Source: Longimicrobiales bacterium (GTDB taxonomy: Bacteria; Gemmatimonadota; Gemmatimonadetes; Longimicrobiales; Gaopeijiaceae). From it: DNA of 64,000 bases. The notes beneath the pieces were generated by a model. The model ran no database searches. It saw only the letters and a program-made list of their open reading frames with translations, and had not been told where the DNA came from. The stretch spans positions 1,086,576-1,150,575 of the forward strand of contig OX639991.1 in the NCBI GenBank assembly GCA_951828585.1. Reading direction: 5' to 3'. Positions within the stretch are counted from its first letter, which is position 1. The number at the start of each line of letters is the position of its first letter. A program made the position numbers and the translations under genes. Of the stretch, positions 35,214 through 43,887 are shown piece by piece.

Positions 35214-35231
35214 CCTGCCTTATTCATGAAT
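35214..35231 (+). repeat. Left terminal inverted repeat of the IS
   Basis: CCTGCCTTATTCATGAAT, the outer end nearest the tricorn C-terminal part; matches the right end at 15 of 18 positions. The adjacent ATGAA at 35209-35213 is the target duplication. Confidence 0.9.
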
Positions 35232-35443
35232 TCGCGAGTCGAGGGCAAGGTAGGGGGCTGAGAGGCCTCTCACAACCCCGATGGCGGGTCGGGGGCGGTT
35301 CCGGGGGCAAAAAACGGGCGTTTCGAGTCCGAAAAGGTTAGTTTGTTCGACCGAACCGAGCCGGTTTCCGGCGCTTGGAGACACCTCGGCGTCCTTGCGG
35401 CCGCCGGGGCCGGGAAAGGGTTCGGCGCCTGGCGGCGCCCGCG

Positions 35444-36874
35444 CTATCCGGAGGGCCCGTGCAGGGTCGCGAGCCCGCGGGCGAGCATGCGCCAGTGCGC
35501 CGACGCGCCTCCGATGGTCATCGTAATCCGGCGGCCCGATACGGTGAAGCGCGCCGGGGTGCGGAGCACGCGGTCCGCGAGACGCCGCAGGCTCCAGCCG
35601 GTTCCGGTCATGCGCTCCAGCACGGCGCGCTGGACGTGCATGATCTGGTAGCCGAAGCCGGCGAGCAGCAGGCGCACCTGGTTGCACGCGAAGGGGTCCA
35701 CACCCTTCTCGCGCTTCGCGATCTTCTTGCCCCGGTAGTGGCTCTTGCGGCGCGACGTGGACGACAGGGCCGGGGAGACGACGCTCATCAGCTCGCCCAG
35801 GTGGCCCTCCGCCTTGCCGCGCTTGCGGTACAGCGCCAGGAGGTCCTCGCCGGACATCTCCTCCGACGGCATCGAGGTCAGCAGCCAGAAGCAGCGCGGG
35901 ATGAGTTCGCCCGGCCGCTCGACGACGACCTGCACGACCCGGCGGGAACGGGACCACGACCCGGCCCGGTAGGACGACTCGCAAACCCAGGTGCGGGGCT
36001 CGCCGCCGGGCGCCCCGTTGTTCAGCGCATCCCAGACCACGGCGTCCATGGCCGGCAGCGCCAGGCGCTTCAGCACGGCGTTGTTGCGCACCCGGGCCAC
36101 GTAGTGCGTGCCCCGCTCCTCCAGCGCCGCCATCAGCGGCTCGCCGGGATATCCCGCGTCGAAGCGCACCGCTGCCTTCCCGCACAGATGCCGCTCCGCC
36201 CGCTCCAGCACCTCGAGGACGAACTCCAGCCCGCCGTCCGCCGTGTGCACCTGCCCCTCGCGCAGCCGCAGATCCAGGATGTCGCCCGTCTCCCCCGCCG
36301 CCGCCACGATCGGATGATACACGCGCCGGTGATAGTAGCCGTTCCACGCGCTGCCCGGCTGTTCCCCATGGACCTCGACCGGCAGGCTGTCGATGTCGAT
36401 CACCAGCGTCTTCGGACGCCGCCGGCCGCCCATCGCCTTCAGCCGCCACCCCGCCAGCCGCTGCAACCCCTCGCGCAGCACCTCGACGCCCTCCTTCGCC
36501 GACCACGCCGCCACCCGCCGCGACAGCGTCGGCTGCGAGGGCAGGCACCCGCCCTCGCCCAGCGGAGCCGTGCCCGCCCGGTCGCCGGTGGCCAGCCGCA
36601 GCGCCGGATCGTCGCGCAGCTCCGTCGCGTCGCCATGGTCCCGGCGGCCCTGCCCCGCCAGCAGCAGAAGCGTCCGCGCCAGCCGCCTCTGAGAATGCCG
36701 GATCCGGCGCCCGTCCCGCTTGTCCGGCAGCCCCTCCGCCAGAAACCGCACCACCCTGCTGCGCCGCAGCAGCTCGCGCCCCGTCAGAGCCCCCGAATCC
36801 CCCGTGATCCGGTCCCGGCCGGACCCAATCCTGATCGACCTGTTGAAGCTGAACGGCGCATCCATTATCTTCAC
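35444..36874 (-). CDS. IS1380-family DDE transposase
   Basis: A 476-residue transposase. Catalytic acidic residues in family order: Asp in LVIDIDSLPVEVHG, Asp in VRFDAGYPGE, and Glu in YRKRGKAEGHLGEL. An N-terminal helix-rich, DNA-binding-like region includes QPTLSRRVAAW. It shows no stop or frameshift and so appears active. IS1380 elements move by cut-and-paste with short target duplications, consistent with the five-base one seen here. Confidence 0.92.
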   Translation of the reverse strand: MKIMDAPFSFNRSIRIGSGRDRITGDSGALTGRELLRRSRVVRFLAEGLPDKRDGRRIRHSQRRLARTLLLLAGQGRRDHGDATELRDDPALRLATGDRAGTAPLGEGGCLPSQPTLSRRVAAWSAKEGVEVLREGLQRLAGWRLKAMGGRRRPKTLVIDIDSLPVEVHGEQPGSAWNGYYHRRVYHPIVAAAGETGDILDLRLREGQVHTADGGLEFVLEVLERAERHLCGKAAVRFDAGYPGEPLMAALEERGTHYVARVRNNAVLKRLALPAMDAVVWDALNNGAPGGEPRTWVCESSYRAGSWSRSRRVVQVVVERPGELIPRCFWLLTSMPSEEMSGEDLLALYRKRGKAEGHLGELMSVVSPALSSTSRRKSHYRGKKIAKREKGVDPFACNQVRLLLAGFGYQIMHVQRAVLERMTGTGWSLRRLADRVLRTPARFTVSGRRITMTIGGASAHWRMLARGLATLHGPSG

Positions 36875-36964
36875 CCCCGACGTGATGGCTGGCAGGTGCT
36901 CGCGATCCTTCTAACACTCTGAATCTAAAGCACTTGCCGCCTCACGTCGCCTCGCCTCCCGGCC

Positions 36965-36982
36965 ATTCGTGAATAAGGGGGG
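36965..36982 (-). repeat. Right terminal inverted repeat of the IS
   Basis: On the minus strand it reads CCCCCCTTATTCACGAAT, matching the left end at 15 of 18 positions. The second target copy ATGAA follows at 36983-36987. Confidence 0.9.
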
Positions 36983-39111: not shown

Positions 39112-39216
39112 TGGGCTGGACTCCGTGGCTGGTGCGAGCGGCGTGGGAACGATCACTGGGAAAGCTGGCGCCTCAGGCCGGCGGCGCAAGGACGCTGGTG
39201 TCCGTTGGCAGTACCC

Positions 39217-39669
39217 CTATTGCTCGATAGTGACCAAGTAGTCGGCGGGCGGCAACAGCTTGGTCACTGACCAAATACTACGCGGGGTCATGGCCAGGCC
39301 AACCGCGCGCGTCAGGCAGGACGCTTGGGGGACAACGCGGAGGTGAATCCGGTACCGGGGGCTGACGGACACGTGCGGCTCGTAGGTTCGGTTGCACCCC
39401 TCGTGATCGGGGAAGACCCGGCGGTGTCCATACTGCTGCATCGTTGGCTCGCTTTCCGGTCTGCAGTCCGTGAGCTGAGGGGAAAGCATGGTCGGGTCCT
39501 GCTGCCACTTCCTGCAGGCGTCATCCAGCACCATGAGCTTCAGGACGACGCGAGGAAGGAGCGTCGAAGGCAGGTTTCCGTTGAGCCCGGCGAGAACCGT
39601 CAGCCCACCCAATGGAACCCTCTGATTACGGAAGCACTTGAAGTTCCTCAGATGAAGCGACTCAATCAA
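39217..39669 (-). pseudogene. Decayed AAA-type ATPase remnant (DUF3696-like N-terminus)
   Basis: The first 30 residues, MIESLHLRNFKCFRNQRV and GGLTVLAGLNGN, match the start of SMC-like/DUF3696 ATPases, and the ATG overlaps the DUF262 stop (ATGA). The P-loop reads GLNGNLPST instead of a GxxxxGKST loop, so the nucleotide-binding Gly-Lys is lost. After that no conserved ATPase motif follows, and the frame ends inside the 46-bp operator-like element at 39229. It is best read as a broken third gene of the DUF262 operon. Confidence 0.6.
39229..39274 (+). promoter_or_regulatory. 46-bp operator-like element, left copy
   Basis: AGTGACCAAGTA, 11 variable bases, GCAACAG, then the dyad CTTGGTCACTGACCAA. 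The copy at 41988-42033 has the same parts with the same 11-base spacer length, in the same orientation. The dyad is symmetric about its central C. This copy lies at the downstream edge of the DUF262 operon, next to the tricorn gene. Confidence 0.7.
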
Positions 39670-40667
39670 GACAAGCCCGCGCGCACCAGCTCCCGCATCC
39701 TCCCGAACCGGATCTTCACCTGTCTCGTCGCCTGCGTTCCCACGGAGATGCTCTCGAAGAACTCCGCACTCTCCATGAGGCCGCCGAGTTCGGCCGCGAC
39801 CTCATCCTTGCGGTCCCTGAGCCACTCGACCCCGTTTTCGGGCACCTCGGCGAGCGCGACCGAGAGGCTCTCGAAGAGCGGCTTGTTGACCGGGCTTCGC
39901 CACTGCTGGTAGTCAAGCCGGTTGGGCTTGCGGAATGCTCCCTTTCCAAACAGATCCCAAGCGAGCGACATGGCGCGCCGGAAGTCTTCCCGGAGCGATG
40001 AATGGCTTCCTGGAGCCCCGTTCAGGTGCTTCATGGCGGCCATCAGGAACTCGTCGAGCTTGCCGCCGTAGGATTCGTCGCCCAGTGATCGGAAGGCCAG
40101 GAACCGGAGGACGCATTCGCGGTTTGCCATGCGCTTGGGGTTGACCGTGCCGTCAGTCGCTTTGAGGAACTCTGGTGACTCCGCCAGCTTCCGCAGGAGC
40201 TCGCGGGCCGGGCCGGGATTGAGCGCGTGCCGGATCTCCTGGCCCACGAGGGGCTTGCCCTCGGTGTTGATACGCTTGAAGACATTGAACATCACCTCCG
40301 GCGGGGTGCCCGTCTCGATGACGTGGCAGGACAGCTGGGTCTCCGTGATACGGCGCTGCATGGGACGAGGCAGCTGATCGTAGTCGTGGCCCTCGAACTG
40401 GCTCAAGTACTCCAAGCCGCGCAGGCGCAGCTTCTTGCGGAGAATGAAGTTGCGCAGGGTGCCGAGTCTCTGCAGGCCGTCGACGACCTGCCAGTTGTCA
40501 TCAGGATCCGCCGCCATGTAGAAGACGGGCAGGGGGATCCTAAGGAGAATGGACTCGATCAGGCGGCTCTGCGTTCTGGGGGGCCAAATGTCGCCGGACC
40601 TCTGGAAGTCGGGTGCAAGATCGATTTCGTCCCGGCGAATGCGCTTCATCACTGCCGAGCGAATCAC
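39666..40667 (-). CDS. DUF262 (ParB/GmrS-like) protein
   Basis: A 333-residue DUF262 domain protein. The ParB/Srx-like nuclease or NTPase loop is QVVDGLQRLGTL at about residues 60-71, where the family consensus is DGQQRLTTL; the first Gln is Leu here. A short C-terminal helix-rich part replaces the DUF1524 HNH domain of full GmrSD enzymes, so it is the single-domain variety. Start GTG 40667 overlaps the upstream gene's stop (GTGA). DUF262 proteins are often found in defence loci and act with ATPases; with the partner genes damaged, its activity here is doubtful. Confidence 0.8.
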   Translation of the reverse strand: MIRSAVMKRIRRDEIDLAPDFQRSGDIWPPRTQSRLIESILLRIPLPVFYMAADPDDNWQVVDGLQRLGTLRNFILRKKLRLRGLEYLSQFEGHDYDQLPRPMQRRITETQLSCHVIETGTPPEVMFNVFKRINTEGKPLVGQEIRHALNPGPARELLRKLAESPEFLKATDGTVNPKRMANRECVLRFLAFRSLGDESYGGKLDEFLMAAMKHLNGAPGSHSSLREDFRRAMSLAWDLFGKGAFRKPNRLDYQQWRSPVNKPLFESLSVALAEVPENGVEWLRDRKDEVAAELGGLMESAEFFESISVGTQATRQVKIRFGRMRELVRAGLS

Positions 40668-41965
40668 GAGCCCCTCACCCCGCCACCCACCTCTCCTTCA
40701 GCGCCACCCCCCGCATCGGTGAGCACGTACTTCTGGTTCGGCGCGCGTGGATTGCCGGGATTCGTCATGCGGACCAGCCCGGCCTCCAGCAGCGGCTTCA
40801 GATGCTTCCGGCGAAAGTGGGAGCGATGGGACACGCCCGCGCGCTCCATGAGCTCGGCCAGACTTCGCGGAACGTCGCACGCAGCCACGATGGCGCGCTG
40901 GCGAGCGGTCAGCCGATGCGCAGCATGGTCACCATCCACGTATTCGCGCACTTGGTCACCATGGTCACTGACCATGTCGGCACGCGGCGAGTCCACGGGA
41001 CGGTCGTCGCAGCCGCGATCCTCGACTCGTTCCGCGCCCGTCCCCTCCGTCGGCCTCCCCTCAACAGCCGGTGCCCCCTCCCCCAGCAGCGACAGCTCGA
41101 ACTCGCTTCGGGCCTCGTCGCTGCGGATCACGGGAGGGGCGTGGCCCAGACGCTGCCAGTTCCTGAAGATGGCCCGGATTCCTGTGCCCGCCTGCCTGGC
41201 GAGACCGATTCCGCGGAACGCTGCCGCGATCAATGGGTTGCGCACTTCCTTCGCCGTCCGGTCAAGCAGCTCGCTGGTCGGGGCGCCGGCGTCCCCCGGG
41301 TTCCAGAACACCGTCCGGTCGCGATACAAGCGGATGAAGGCCGTGCGCCCGCGGTCGCCGTAGTCCTGGTGGATCAGCTGGTTGATGAGAGCCTCCCGGA
41401 AGGACACGTCGCCGGGCGGATGGTCGTCGCGGCGCAAGGTCTGCATGTCGATGCTGAACGGGCGCTCCGCATGCCGCATGTAGCGTTCGGTAACGATCAG
41501 CCAGGCTTGAAGCATGTTCTCCTCGACGACGACGCGGTCAGTCCAGCGGCGTTCAGGCGGCCCCTCGTCGTAGGCGGCGCCGATGAACTGGCAGTCGATG
41601 ACCGGACGGGGCAGAACCTGCCGGACGTAGCGGGGCTTGCCGAAGACGAGTACCGCCGCCCGCGTCGGGGCCAATCGGTCGCCGCACTCGACAACCAATC
41701 CCCGATCGTGCAGGAATTCCACATCGCCGAGGTCCTGCCCCTCGCCGGGGTTGCGGCCGGAAAAGACCGATCGGTACCACCGCACCGACGCCGGATCGAA
41801 GAACCGGGGCGCCTCCAGCTCCTCCAGGACCCGGCGCTCGTACGAGTCCTCGGCTGGGTCCCGCAGGACGCGATCCTCATTGAACTCGGTGTCCGGCCAC
41901 TCGGATCGCCCCATCCGGCCCGCAATCTCCTCGCGATCCATCTCCTCCGGCTCCGTCGGCGTCAA
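40664..41965 (-). CDS. HATPase-c_4 type regulator lacking most of its AlbA_2 domain
   Basis: A 433-residue protein. The N-terminus shows an AlbA_2-like start (EEIAGRMGRSEWPDTEFNED) but then jumps to a segment normally about 100 residues later (LRDPAEDSYERRVLEELE), so the AlbA_2 core is missing. The HATPase-like part is normal: EALINQLIHQDYGDRGRT, RNPLIAAAFRGIG and RQAGTGIRAIFRNW. A C-terminal winged helix (LTARQRAIVAACDVPRSL) could bind DNA. It is the first gene of a three-gene operon behind the operator-like element 41988-42034, so autoregulation is plausible. Confidence 0.7.
   Translation of the reverse strand: MTPTEPEEMDREEIAGRMGRSEWPDTEFNEDRVLRDPAEDSYERRVLEELEAPRFFDPASVRWYRSVFSGRNPGEGQDLGDVEFLHDRGLVVECGDRLAPTRAAVLVFGKPRYVRQVLPRPVIDCQFIGAAYDEGPPERRWTDRVVVEENMLQAWLIVTERYMRHAERPFSIDMQTLRRDDHPPGDVSFREALINQLIHQDYGDRGRTAFIRLYRDRTVFWNPGDAGAPTSELLDRTAKEVRNPLIAAAFRGIGLARQAGTGIRAIFRNWQRLGHAPPVIRSDEARSEFELSLLGEGAPAVEGRPTEGTGAERVEDRGCDDRPVDSPRADMVSDHGDQVREYVDGDHAAHRLTARQRAIVAACDVPRSLAELMERAGVSHRSHFRRKHLKPLLEAGLVRMTNPGNPRAPNQKYVLTDAGGGAEGEVGGGVRGS
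40960..40976 (+). promoter_or_regulatory. Intragenic palindrome related to the operator
   Basis: CATGGTCACTGACCATG is a perfect 17-base palindrome inside the regulator gene. It is the operator dyad with one symmetric exchange per arm. A half-site CTTGGTCACC precedes it at 40951. It may be a second binding site or chance from codon use (DMVSDHGDQV). Confidence 0.4.
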
Positions 41966-41987
41966 TTCGCGTTCACTTCACTTGAAC

Positions 41988-42034
41988 AGTGACCAAGTAA
42001 CCTCATGATTGCAACAGCTTGGTCACTGACCAAG
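41988..42034 (-). promoter_or_regulatory. 46-bp operator-like element, right copy, before the operon start
   Basis: AGTGACCAAGTA at 41988-41999, then 11 bases, then GCAACAG and the perfect 17-base palindrome CTTGGTCACTGACCAAG at 42018-42034. It starts 23 bases upstream of the ATG of the HATPase-like gene and would cover the promoter. A weak -35-like TTGCAA lies on the minus strand between the two half elements. Confidence 0.65.
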
Positions 42035-42043
42035 TGGCATTGT

Positions 42044-42128: not shown

Positions 42129-42194
42129 GCTCCGCACCGGCACGCCTGAGGGCGTAGATTATCTGGTGTTCGAATGCCGACCCAGGGAGACACC

Positions 42195-42866
42195 ATGAAC
42201 CCGCGTCTCGATGCCCTGCCGCCGCCCCAGCGCCGCCTGTGGCCCGAGTTGCGAGCAACTCCTCGCCGCTTCGTGCTGTACGGCGGGACCGCCATAGCGC
42301 TGCGGCTTGCCCACCGCGAGTCGGAAGATTTCGACTTCTTTTCTTCCGAGCCTTTCGACGGAGACAGCCTCCTGGCCGAGATTCCGTACCTGAAGGGCGC
42401 GACGGTGGTTCAGCGGGCGCGCGACACACTGACGTGCGTGGTCGATCGCCGCGGACCCGTGCGCATGTCCTTCTTCGGGGGGCTGTCGCTCAACCGCGTG
42501 CAATCTCCGCAAACAGCCGAGGGCGCGGGAATCCTGGTAGCCTCGCTACGCGATCTCGGAGGCACCAAGGCTCAGGTGGTGCAGAGCCGCGCACTCTCCA
42601 AGGACTACATCGACATCGACGCGCTGATGCGGTTGGGAGGCGTCTCTCTGGAGGCCATGCTCGGTGCGGCCGCGGCGATCCACGGAGAACCCTACAACGC
42701 CATGCTGACCCTCAAGGCGCTGGCCTACTTCGGTGACGGCGATCTGGCGGAGCTCCCGGCCGCGGTTCGGAAGCGTCTCTCGCATGCCGCGGCCACGCTG
42801 GATCCCGGGTCGATCCCAAATTACGAACCGCTTTCTGGAATCGGGCCGCCCGGCCCTGGACAATGA
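42195..42866 (+). CDS. Nucleotidyltransferase of the AbiEii/AbiGii (MenT-like) toxin family
   Basis: A 223-residue protein from ATG 42195 (GGGAGACACC upstream; an ATG at 42174 was rejected). The nucleotidyltransferase motif is FVLYGGTAIALRLAHRESED followed by FDFFS, giving the GG..hR.S.DhD pattern. The C-terminal lysine region SRALSKDYIDIDALMRLG is conserved in the family. AbiEii/MenT enzymes transfer nucleotides to tRNA ends and are toxic unless neutralised. It overlaps the next gene by four bases (ATGA), supporting a toxin-antitoxin style pair, though in AbiE systems the antitoxin comes first. Confidence 0.8.
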   Translation: MNPRLDALPPPQRRLWPELRATPRRFVLYGGTAIALRLAHRESEDFDFFSSEPFDGDSLLAEIPYLKGATVVQRARDTLTCVVDRRGPVRMSFFGGLSLNRVQSPQTAEGAGILVASLRDLGGTKAQVVQSRALSKDYIDIDALMRLGGVSLEAMLGAAAAIHGEPYNAMLTLKALAYFGDGDLAELPAAVRKRLSHAAATLDPGSIPNYEPLSGIGPPGPGQ

Positions 42867-43186
42867 CCTCGTCCGCCATGAATTCCGCGACCCCGAATCA
42901 GCCCCCCCACTCCCCGGAACTGCTGGCGGTCGCCAAGCGCATGGTCTGGTTCAAGCCCCCGGCGACCACGCTCGCCAACGACGTCTTCTTCCTCAACTAC
43001 CTCATGGTGTATGGCACCGCCGATGATCTCGCGGTGGCGAGGCAGCGATACGACGACGATGACTTTCGCCGGGCCCTGCGGGAAGCGCTCCCCGGGGTCT
43101 TCGATCCGCGCTCATGGGCCTACTGGCACGCGCGTCTGGGAATGGGGCCCGCTCCGGCGCGTCCGGTGCGGGAGTGCCGCCGCTGA
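42863..43186 (+). CDS. Partner protein of the AbiEii-type gene, probable antitoxin-like role
   Basis: A 107-residue soluble protein translationally coupled to the nucleotidyltransferase. Visible features: LLAVAKRMVWFKPPATTLAN, then FFLNYLMVYGTADDLAVAR, and an acidic/aromatic tail (FRRALREALPGVFDPRSWAYWHARLG). No helix-turn-helix is obvious. Proteins of this size and place with AbiEii-like genes in related genomes are uncharacterised. Role inferred from coupling only. Confidence 0.6.
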   Translation: MTSSAMNSATPNQPPHSPELLAVAKRMVWFKPPATTLANDVFFLNYLMVYGTADDLAVARQRYDDDDFRRALREALPGVFDPRSWAYWHARLGMGPAPARPVRECRR

Positions 43187-43216: not shown

Positions 43217-43645
43217 TCAAGTCAAGGCGATCAAGCCGCTGGCCTCACGGGGGGTCAGCACCGCTCCGAGACGGGGAGGACTGTCCAGGAGGCGCTGATC
43301 GCCGGTAACCAGACGGCTCTCGGGCCAGCTTGCAAGAAGCGCCCAAAGGTGGTTGTCGCCGGCGTCCGGAGCGGGGGCTGCGGTGGTGGCCTGGCGCCAC
43401 ATGGCGTCCGCAGCGACGACTGTCAGCAACCGGGCGACCTCGTCGTCGGATAGCCGGTGAAGCCGCGCAACCGCAGGGCGGTGCAGAACCTCCGAGTACT
43501 CGGTGAAGAGGGCGCCGGACATGAGATAGACAAGGCGTCCGTCGAGCATCGCGTCGAGAATCAGGGCAGGGGGACTTGCCGGATCGGAGCCGATGGTCCC
43601 GGACACGACTACGTTGGTGTCCACAACCAGGACCGGCCGGGTCAA
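43217..43645 (-). CDS. PIN-domain toxin (COG1569-type)
   Basis: A 142-residue PIN protein. Acidic ligands: Asp in LVVDTNVVVSG, Glu in FTEYSEVLHRP, Asp in PDAGDNHLWALL, and Asp in LVTGDQRLL. Its start ATG overlaps the antitoxin stop (ATGA, 43642-43645). It should be an RNase toxin. It converges on the AbiEii pair with a 30-base gap. Confidence 0.85.
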   Translation of the reverse strand: MTRPVLVVDTNVVVSGTIGSDPASPPALILDAMLDGRLVYLMSGALFTEYSEVLHRPAVARLHRLSDDEVARLLTVVAADAMWRQATTAAPAPDAGDNHLWALLASWPESRLVTGDQRLLDSPPRLGAVLTPREASGLIALT

Positions 43646-43887
43646 TCGTGCTTCCCGGCCCGGTGGAGCCGGGTCTCGCGCACCGCGATGGCCATGGCAT
43701 CGTCGTCGCTCAGTCCGGCGCTCGAACGCGCTCGGGCGACGATCTCCCGCGCGGTATCCGTGGGGAGGATGCCTCTCAATTCCAGGCTCTCTTCGATGAG
43801 GGCGCCCATCGAACGGCCCTGCCGCGCCGCCGCCTCCTTGAGCGCGCGGTGTGTCCGATCGGTCAGTCGTATGGTGAGGCGTGGCAT
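43642..43887 (-). CDS. Ribbon-helix-helix antitoxin
   Basis: An 81-residue protein with an N-terminal RHH fold: PRLTIRLTDRTHRALKEAAA, then RQGRSMGALIEESLEL. The rest is acidic and helical (SSAGLSDDDAMAIAVRET). A good ribosome site (GAAGGACTCG) precedes ATG 43887. It should bind its promoter, where a dyad lies at 43923-43933, and block the PIN toxin. Confidence 0.8.
   Translation of the reverse strand: MPRLTIRLTDRTHRALKEAAARQGRSMGALIEESLELRGILPTDTAREIVARARSSAGLSDDDAMAIAVRETRLHRAGKHD

Follow-up and report, generated by a model that had tools for sequence, protein, structure and literature searches.

Three coupled minus-strand open reading frames (ORFs) with 4-bp overlaps lie in a hotspot placed between a Tricorn-like gene and a xanthine-dehydrogenase-like operon. 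We analyzed them within a 64,000-nt stretch of DNA, here called the window. The features at the locus are as follows.

40664–41965, minus strand: putative regulator gene encoding HATPase_c_4 and a C-terminal winged helix (Fic-like_C), from Pfam, orthologues and alignment
39666–40667, minus strand: DUF262 gene, NsnA (PADLOC E-value 3e-121; longer intact homologues)
39217–39669, minus strand: remnant ORF in which NsnB residues 1–42 are fused in frame to NsnC residues 210–290 (PADLOC)
42017–42035, minus strand: predicted operator O1, dyad GCTTGGTCACTGACCAAGT, forming the outer half of copy 2 of a repeated element, with a core near-invariant in nine aligned promoters
41980–41998, minus strand: predicted operator O2, dyad ACTTGAACAGTGACCAAGT, forming the inner half of copy 2 and centred 37 bp from O1, from the promoter alignment
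39229–39274, minus strand: copy 1 of the element, with O1 carrying one mismatch, the conserved spacer and only half of O2
40923–40977, minus strand: half-site array within the linker that precedes the winged helix, including a perfect palindrome at 40960–40976, encoding DMVSDHGDQV

The first gene encodes a protein that joins an ATPase-like domain to a winged helix. Its probable start is ATG 41941 rather than TTG 41965, because that methionine aligns with the starts of orthologues. Pfam classes the C-terminal domain as a winged helix, and the domain matches 4rgl, while 3lmm is a relative of the ATPase domain; structure prediction from a shallow alignment (mean pLDDT 47) was confident for the winged helix alone. 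Pfam returned no WYL domain in the window protein and no Schlafen/AlbA_2 domain (SLFN_AlbA_2) in either this protein or the orthologue of genome G005. Orthologues at 72–80% protein identity occur in 8 of 23 genomes of the genus (Gemmatimonadota; the same-genus loci are named as Gemmatimonadota MAGs), one of them (G011) split into two frames. Relics of the gene that have lost the winged-helix region and kept the array inside the gene were also seen (L079:15486–15513, L081:17389–17486 and L082:3668–3717).

The two genes behind the regulator are remnants of an nsnABC system. A preliminary description had recognized three coupled minus-strand genes, the last a broken ATPase; the ORFs are real, DUF262 is a truncated NsnA, and the supposed ATPase joins the start of NsnB to the end of NsnC. 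Apart from a 5′ truncation (~55 N-terminal model residues missing), NsnA is nearly complete, and its gene overlaps the regulator stop by 4 bp. The remnant ORF carries an internal deletion of ~1.6 kb relative to the intact nsnB/nsnC of G007, and its last part is encoded by copy 1. In G007, G091 and G071, intact nsnABC operons make the deletion visible directly by comparison and, unlike the window, have no operator sites in the 13 kb examined around them. Cargo behind the orthologues also varies: type III restriction-modification genes follow in G005 and G021 and ATPase genes in G011, and no co-directional gene lies near the orthologue in G008, G018 or G019.

A 46-bp element occurs twice around these genes. 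The copies, at 39229–39274 and 41988–42033, lie in direct orientation, just as first described. Each consists of two dyads of the form ACTTGnnCAsTGnnCAAGT, spaced 37 bp from centre to centre, with GTTGC conserved in between, and copy 2 is directly upstream of the regulator gene. Allowing up to three mismatches, TTGGTCACTGACCAA has 8 matches in the window, where 0.84 would be expected and 100 shuffles gave no more than 3. A search of the whole 4.47-Mb single-contig genome found the exact core of the element at these two sites only. A search around the elements turned up no sigma-70-like promoter, a point against reading them as promoter operators.

The element is best read as the regulator's own promoter operator, because the two-dyad pair stands just upstream of every genus orthologue found (8 of 8). 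In an alignment of nine elements, copy 1 included, TTGGTCAsTGACCAAGC, then GTTGC, then ACTTGGTCACT are nearly invariant. Several loci were first located by exact DNA pattern, a bias toward palindromes at those loci. This conservation, with related sites inside the gene, supports the operator-like nature and self-regulation that the preliminary description proposed for a defense module. The element is not tied to DUF262/ATPase genes as that description had supposed, since the cargo differs by genome and the intact nsnABC operons of relatives lack the sites.

Judged by its sequence, copy 1 arose as a duplicate of the entire regulator promoter and has since decayed. Its resemblance to regulator promoters and leaders continues beyond the 46 bp to ~82 bp (39193–39274), which marks it as a relic of a second regulator promoter. 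The Tricorn-like gene has its probable start ~120–165 bp downstream of copy 1.

Arrays of similar half-sites are scattered through the genus. We found ~17 further orphan arrays, many with half-sites at 0, 12, 35 and 43; several fall between convergent genes, a setting in which no operator would be expected, and they are not obviously promoters. Orphan arrays of ~55 bp built of TGGTCA half-sites (0, 12, 35, 43) at L080:2496–2548, L082:5340–5394, L086:6750–6802 and L089:9108–9161 are 80–89% alike in otherwise unrelated surroundings.

The repeats had also been suggested as recombination borders. On that reading they would be direct repeats through which defense cassettes enter and leave the Tricorn-like/xanthine-dehydrogenase-like hotspot. 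Cargo at the hotspot is indeed very variable, homology between regulator units stops at the outer edge of O1 (within ~10 bp) in 8 of 8 genomes, and a few cassettes finish at an array (L080/L089 and L084/L085). Homology breakpoints, however, fall at 6 of 20 orphan arrays compared with a mean of 4.8 of 19 at other intergenic places, which is no excess. No recombinase is tied to the sites, the orientation of arrays relative to cassettes is inconstant, and a search for an empty site with one element and no regulator found none. With copy 1 recognized as an 82-bp promoter relic, a role as borders is improbable.

Orphan arrays also bear on whether the dyads serve some other, island-wide factor whose sites the regulator merely adjoins. 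Such a factor would account for arrays near other genes and for those in three genomes (G001, G015 and G017) without an intact orthologue. Yet this regulator and copy 1 are the only places with the two-dyad pair and its conserved spacer, and the same dyads occur with related regulators of other phyla, leaving an island-wide factor very improbable.

The regulator gene carries an array of its own. The previously noted palindrome at 40960–40976 is real and belongs to an array of ~55 bp, located ~1.06 kb downstream of the promoter operator in the linker before the winged helix. All full-length orthologues have the array, in degenerate form in G021. Palindromic codon choice exceeds synonymous expectation in six of seven tested orthologues (p 0–0.045). 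The array codons AGT, CAT and CAA are identical in all seven; AGT and CAA are less-used codons, yet every orthologue of this GC-rich genus has them. Synonymous conservation across orthologues was not raised in the array (p 0.49).

Linker-encoded dyads recur in related regulators from other phyla. We scanned GTDB genomes for exact matches to CTTGGTCANTGACCAAG (an estimated ~60 expected by chance), and in 9 of the 80 loci examined the match fell in the linker or promoter of a related regulator: three in this genus, one in a gammaproteobacterium, one each in Defluviicoccus and Bryobacterales, and three in Lachnospiraceae-like or uncultured genomes. The gammaproteobacterial relative is a Schlafen AlbA_2–HATPase_c_4–wHTH protein (Pfam) encoded between brxC and pglX in a BREX-3-like operon with pglZ. 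Its gene has internal dyads at a 36-bp period, and a 36-bp dyad pair lies between its stop and pglX (0 pairs in shuffles). Three more proteobacterial relatives, 47–54% identical to that BREX protein and drawn from protein and family searches in which the DNA pattern was unused, have in-gene dyads at the same period and of related sequence, CTTGTCCACTGCACAAG. Such dyads are absent from three plasmid relatives (42–45% identity; two of them in annotated BREX-3 operons), whose linker repeats are of other kinds. Sequence comparison thus indicates that linker-encoded dyads are recurrent in the family and not universal.

What is new in these results is that a putative operator encoded in the linker recurs across phyla. 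A literature search for the peptide repeats or the DNA motif returned nothing relevant, and no description of this operator was found in the open-access literature. We tentatively propose that a subfamily of HATPase_c_4–winged-helix defense regulators, including Schlafen-fused BREX-3 members, may encode its own operator array in the linker beside the DNA-binding domain at a fixed 36-bp period. Such a gene could serve as a cis-regulatory element for itself, and its linker could change in step with the binding specificity.

Linkers in the wider winged-helix family often contain tandem repeats, whose sequences are many and unrelated. Striking tandem peptide repeats, mostly with periods of 12, 21 or 36 bp, are found in the linkers of L285, L288, L294, L295 and L299, as SPTQ, ATEQ, LSTAQAGHETAS, GVES and SVHMGVD. 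We rejected a general rule that linker DNA equals the upstream operator, as the longest shared words were at chance level in 60 family members, and we rejected general palindromicity of the linkers, just 10% of which reached p ≤ 0.05. Exact-palindrome matches in Vibrio and actinobacteria, though many, cluster apart from regulator loci and were also set aside: the Vibrio sites inspected resemble terminators, the palindrome being followed by a run of T, and one conserved stretch is common to 17 loci, most of them actinobacterial.

The abundance of unrelated linker repeats and the missing palindrome signal across the family are what would be expected if the in-gene palindromes had arisen as a side effect of peptide repeats ([ST]xQV-type linkers) spread by slippage, with the promoter sites alone functional. 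Within the regulator's own subfamily, by contrast, codon choice is palindromic beyond synonymous expectation, the same less-used codons recur in all seven orthologues, and the 36-bp spacing within genes matches the 36–37-bp spacing between genes. A by-product of slippage is therefore an unlikely account.

These features point instead to an autoregulated defense regulator. The DNA itself shows a conserved operator pair, arrays inside the genes, a signal in codon choice, decay of the cargo and a duplicate promoter, and from these we infer binding by the regulator, repression, looping and induction. The locus is probably headed by an autoregulated HATPase_c_4–winged-helix regulator of a variable defense island, with a two-dyad promoter operator and an intragenic auxiliary operator, at the front of a decayed nsnABC cluster. 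Regulator dimers would occupy the promoter region at O1 and O2, whose 37-bp spacing corresponds to ~3.5 helical turns, and repress the regulator gene together with whatever co-directional cargo comes next. The in-gene array ~1.06 kb downstream could act as an auxiliary operator through looping or as a roadblock. The lac operon likewise pairs a promoter operator with an auxiliary operator in the downstream coding region, O2 in lacZ; the internal operator here would differ in lying within the regulator's own gene, and looping is our proposal. The ATPase-like domain is the likely switch, releasing repression on infection. In this genome, the wrecked nsnABC system would have been captured behind the regulator, and copy 1 would be the decayed promoter of a second regulator unit since lost.

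The closest known proteins are the Schlafen–HATPase–wHTH proteins of BREX loci (COG2865-like). Through HATPase_c_4 and the C-terminal winged helix, they align with the full length of the window protein at 36–42% identity, and close relatives among them sit in brxF–brxC–X–pglX–pglZ operons. Unlike these BREX relatives, the window protein lacks SLFN_AlbA_2 and has no adjacent BREX core genes; its neighbors are NsnA, AbiEii-like and toxin-antitoxin genes. The available text of a 2026 survey (PMC12839542) links Schlafen-minimal histidine kinase–wHTH proteins to BREX in >1000 taxa, views them as RNase effectors and describes no operator for them. Our analysis supplies a concrete predicted operator for this widespread, uncharacterised class of defense-linked proteins. 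It suggests that the BREX-3-associated members control transcription too and may explain, at the level of DNA, why some of their linkers contain odd repeats.

Two other defense regulators invite comparison. BrxR of type I BREX is, like the window protein, a first-gene winged-helix regulator of a defense operon and binds an upstream dyad (PMC9122589), but it has a WYL domain and another DNA site. Its authors suspect cis elements within the regulator coding sequence and identified no in-gene element there (PMC9122589); the idea that they had already raised is made directly testable here. RptR binds repeated sites in the promoter of its own defense island, 6-bp TAGCTA sequences (PMC12255303), but it is a small, 9-kDa all-helical repressor with no ATPase domain, and we ruled it out as the same kind of regulator because protein and site both differ.

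The hotspot holds further defense-like and mobile genes. An AbiEii-like toxin gene with a small partner (42174–43186) and a PIN/ribbon-helix-helix toxin-antitoxin pair (43217–43887) lie in the same hotspot. At 35214–36982 the Tricorn-like gene is interrupted by an IS-like element that has a DDE transposase (DDE_Tnp_1_4) and ends of the TTATTCA type; in G001, G017, G018 and G021 the Tricorn-like gene is contiguous.
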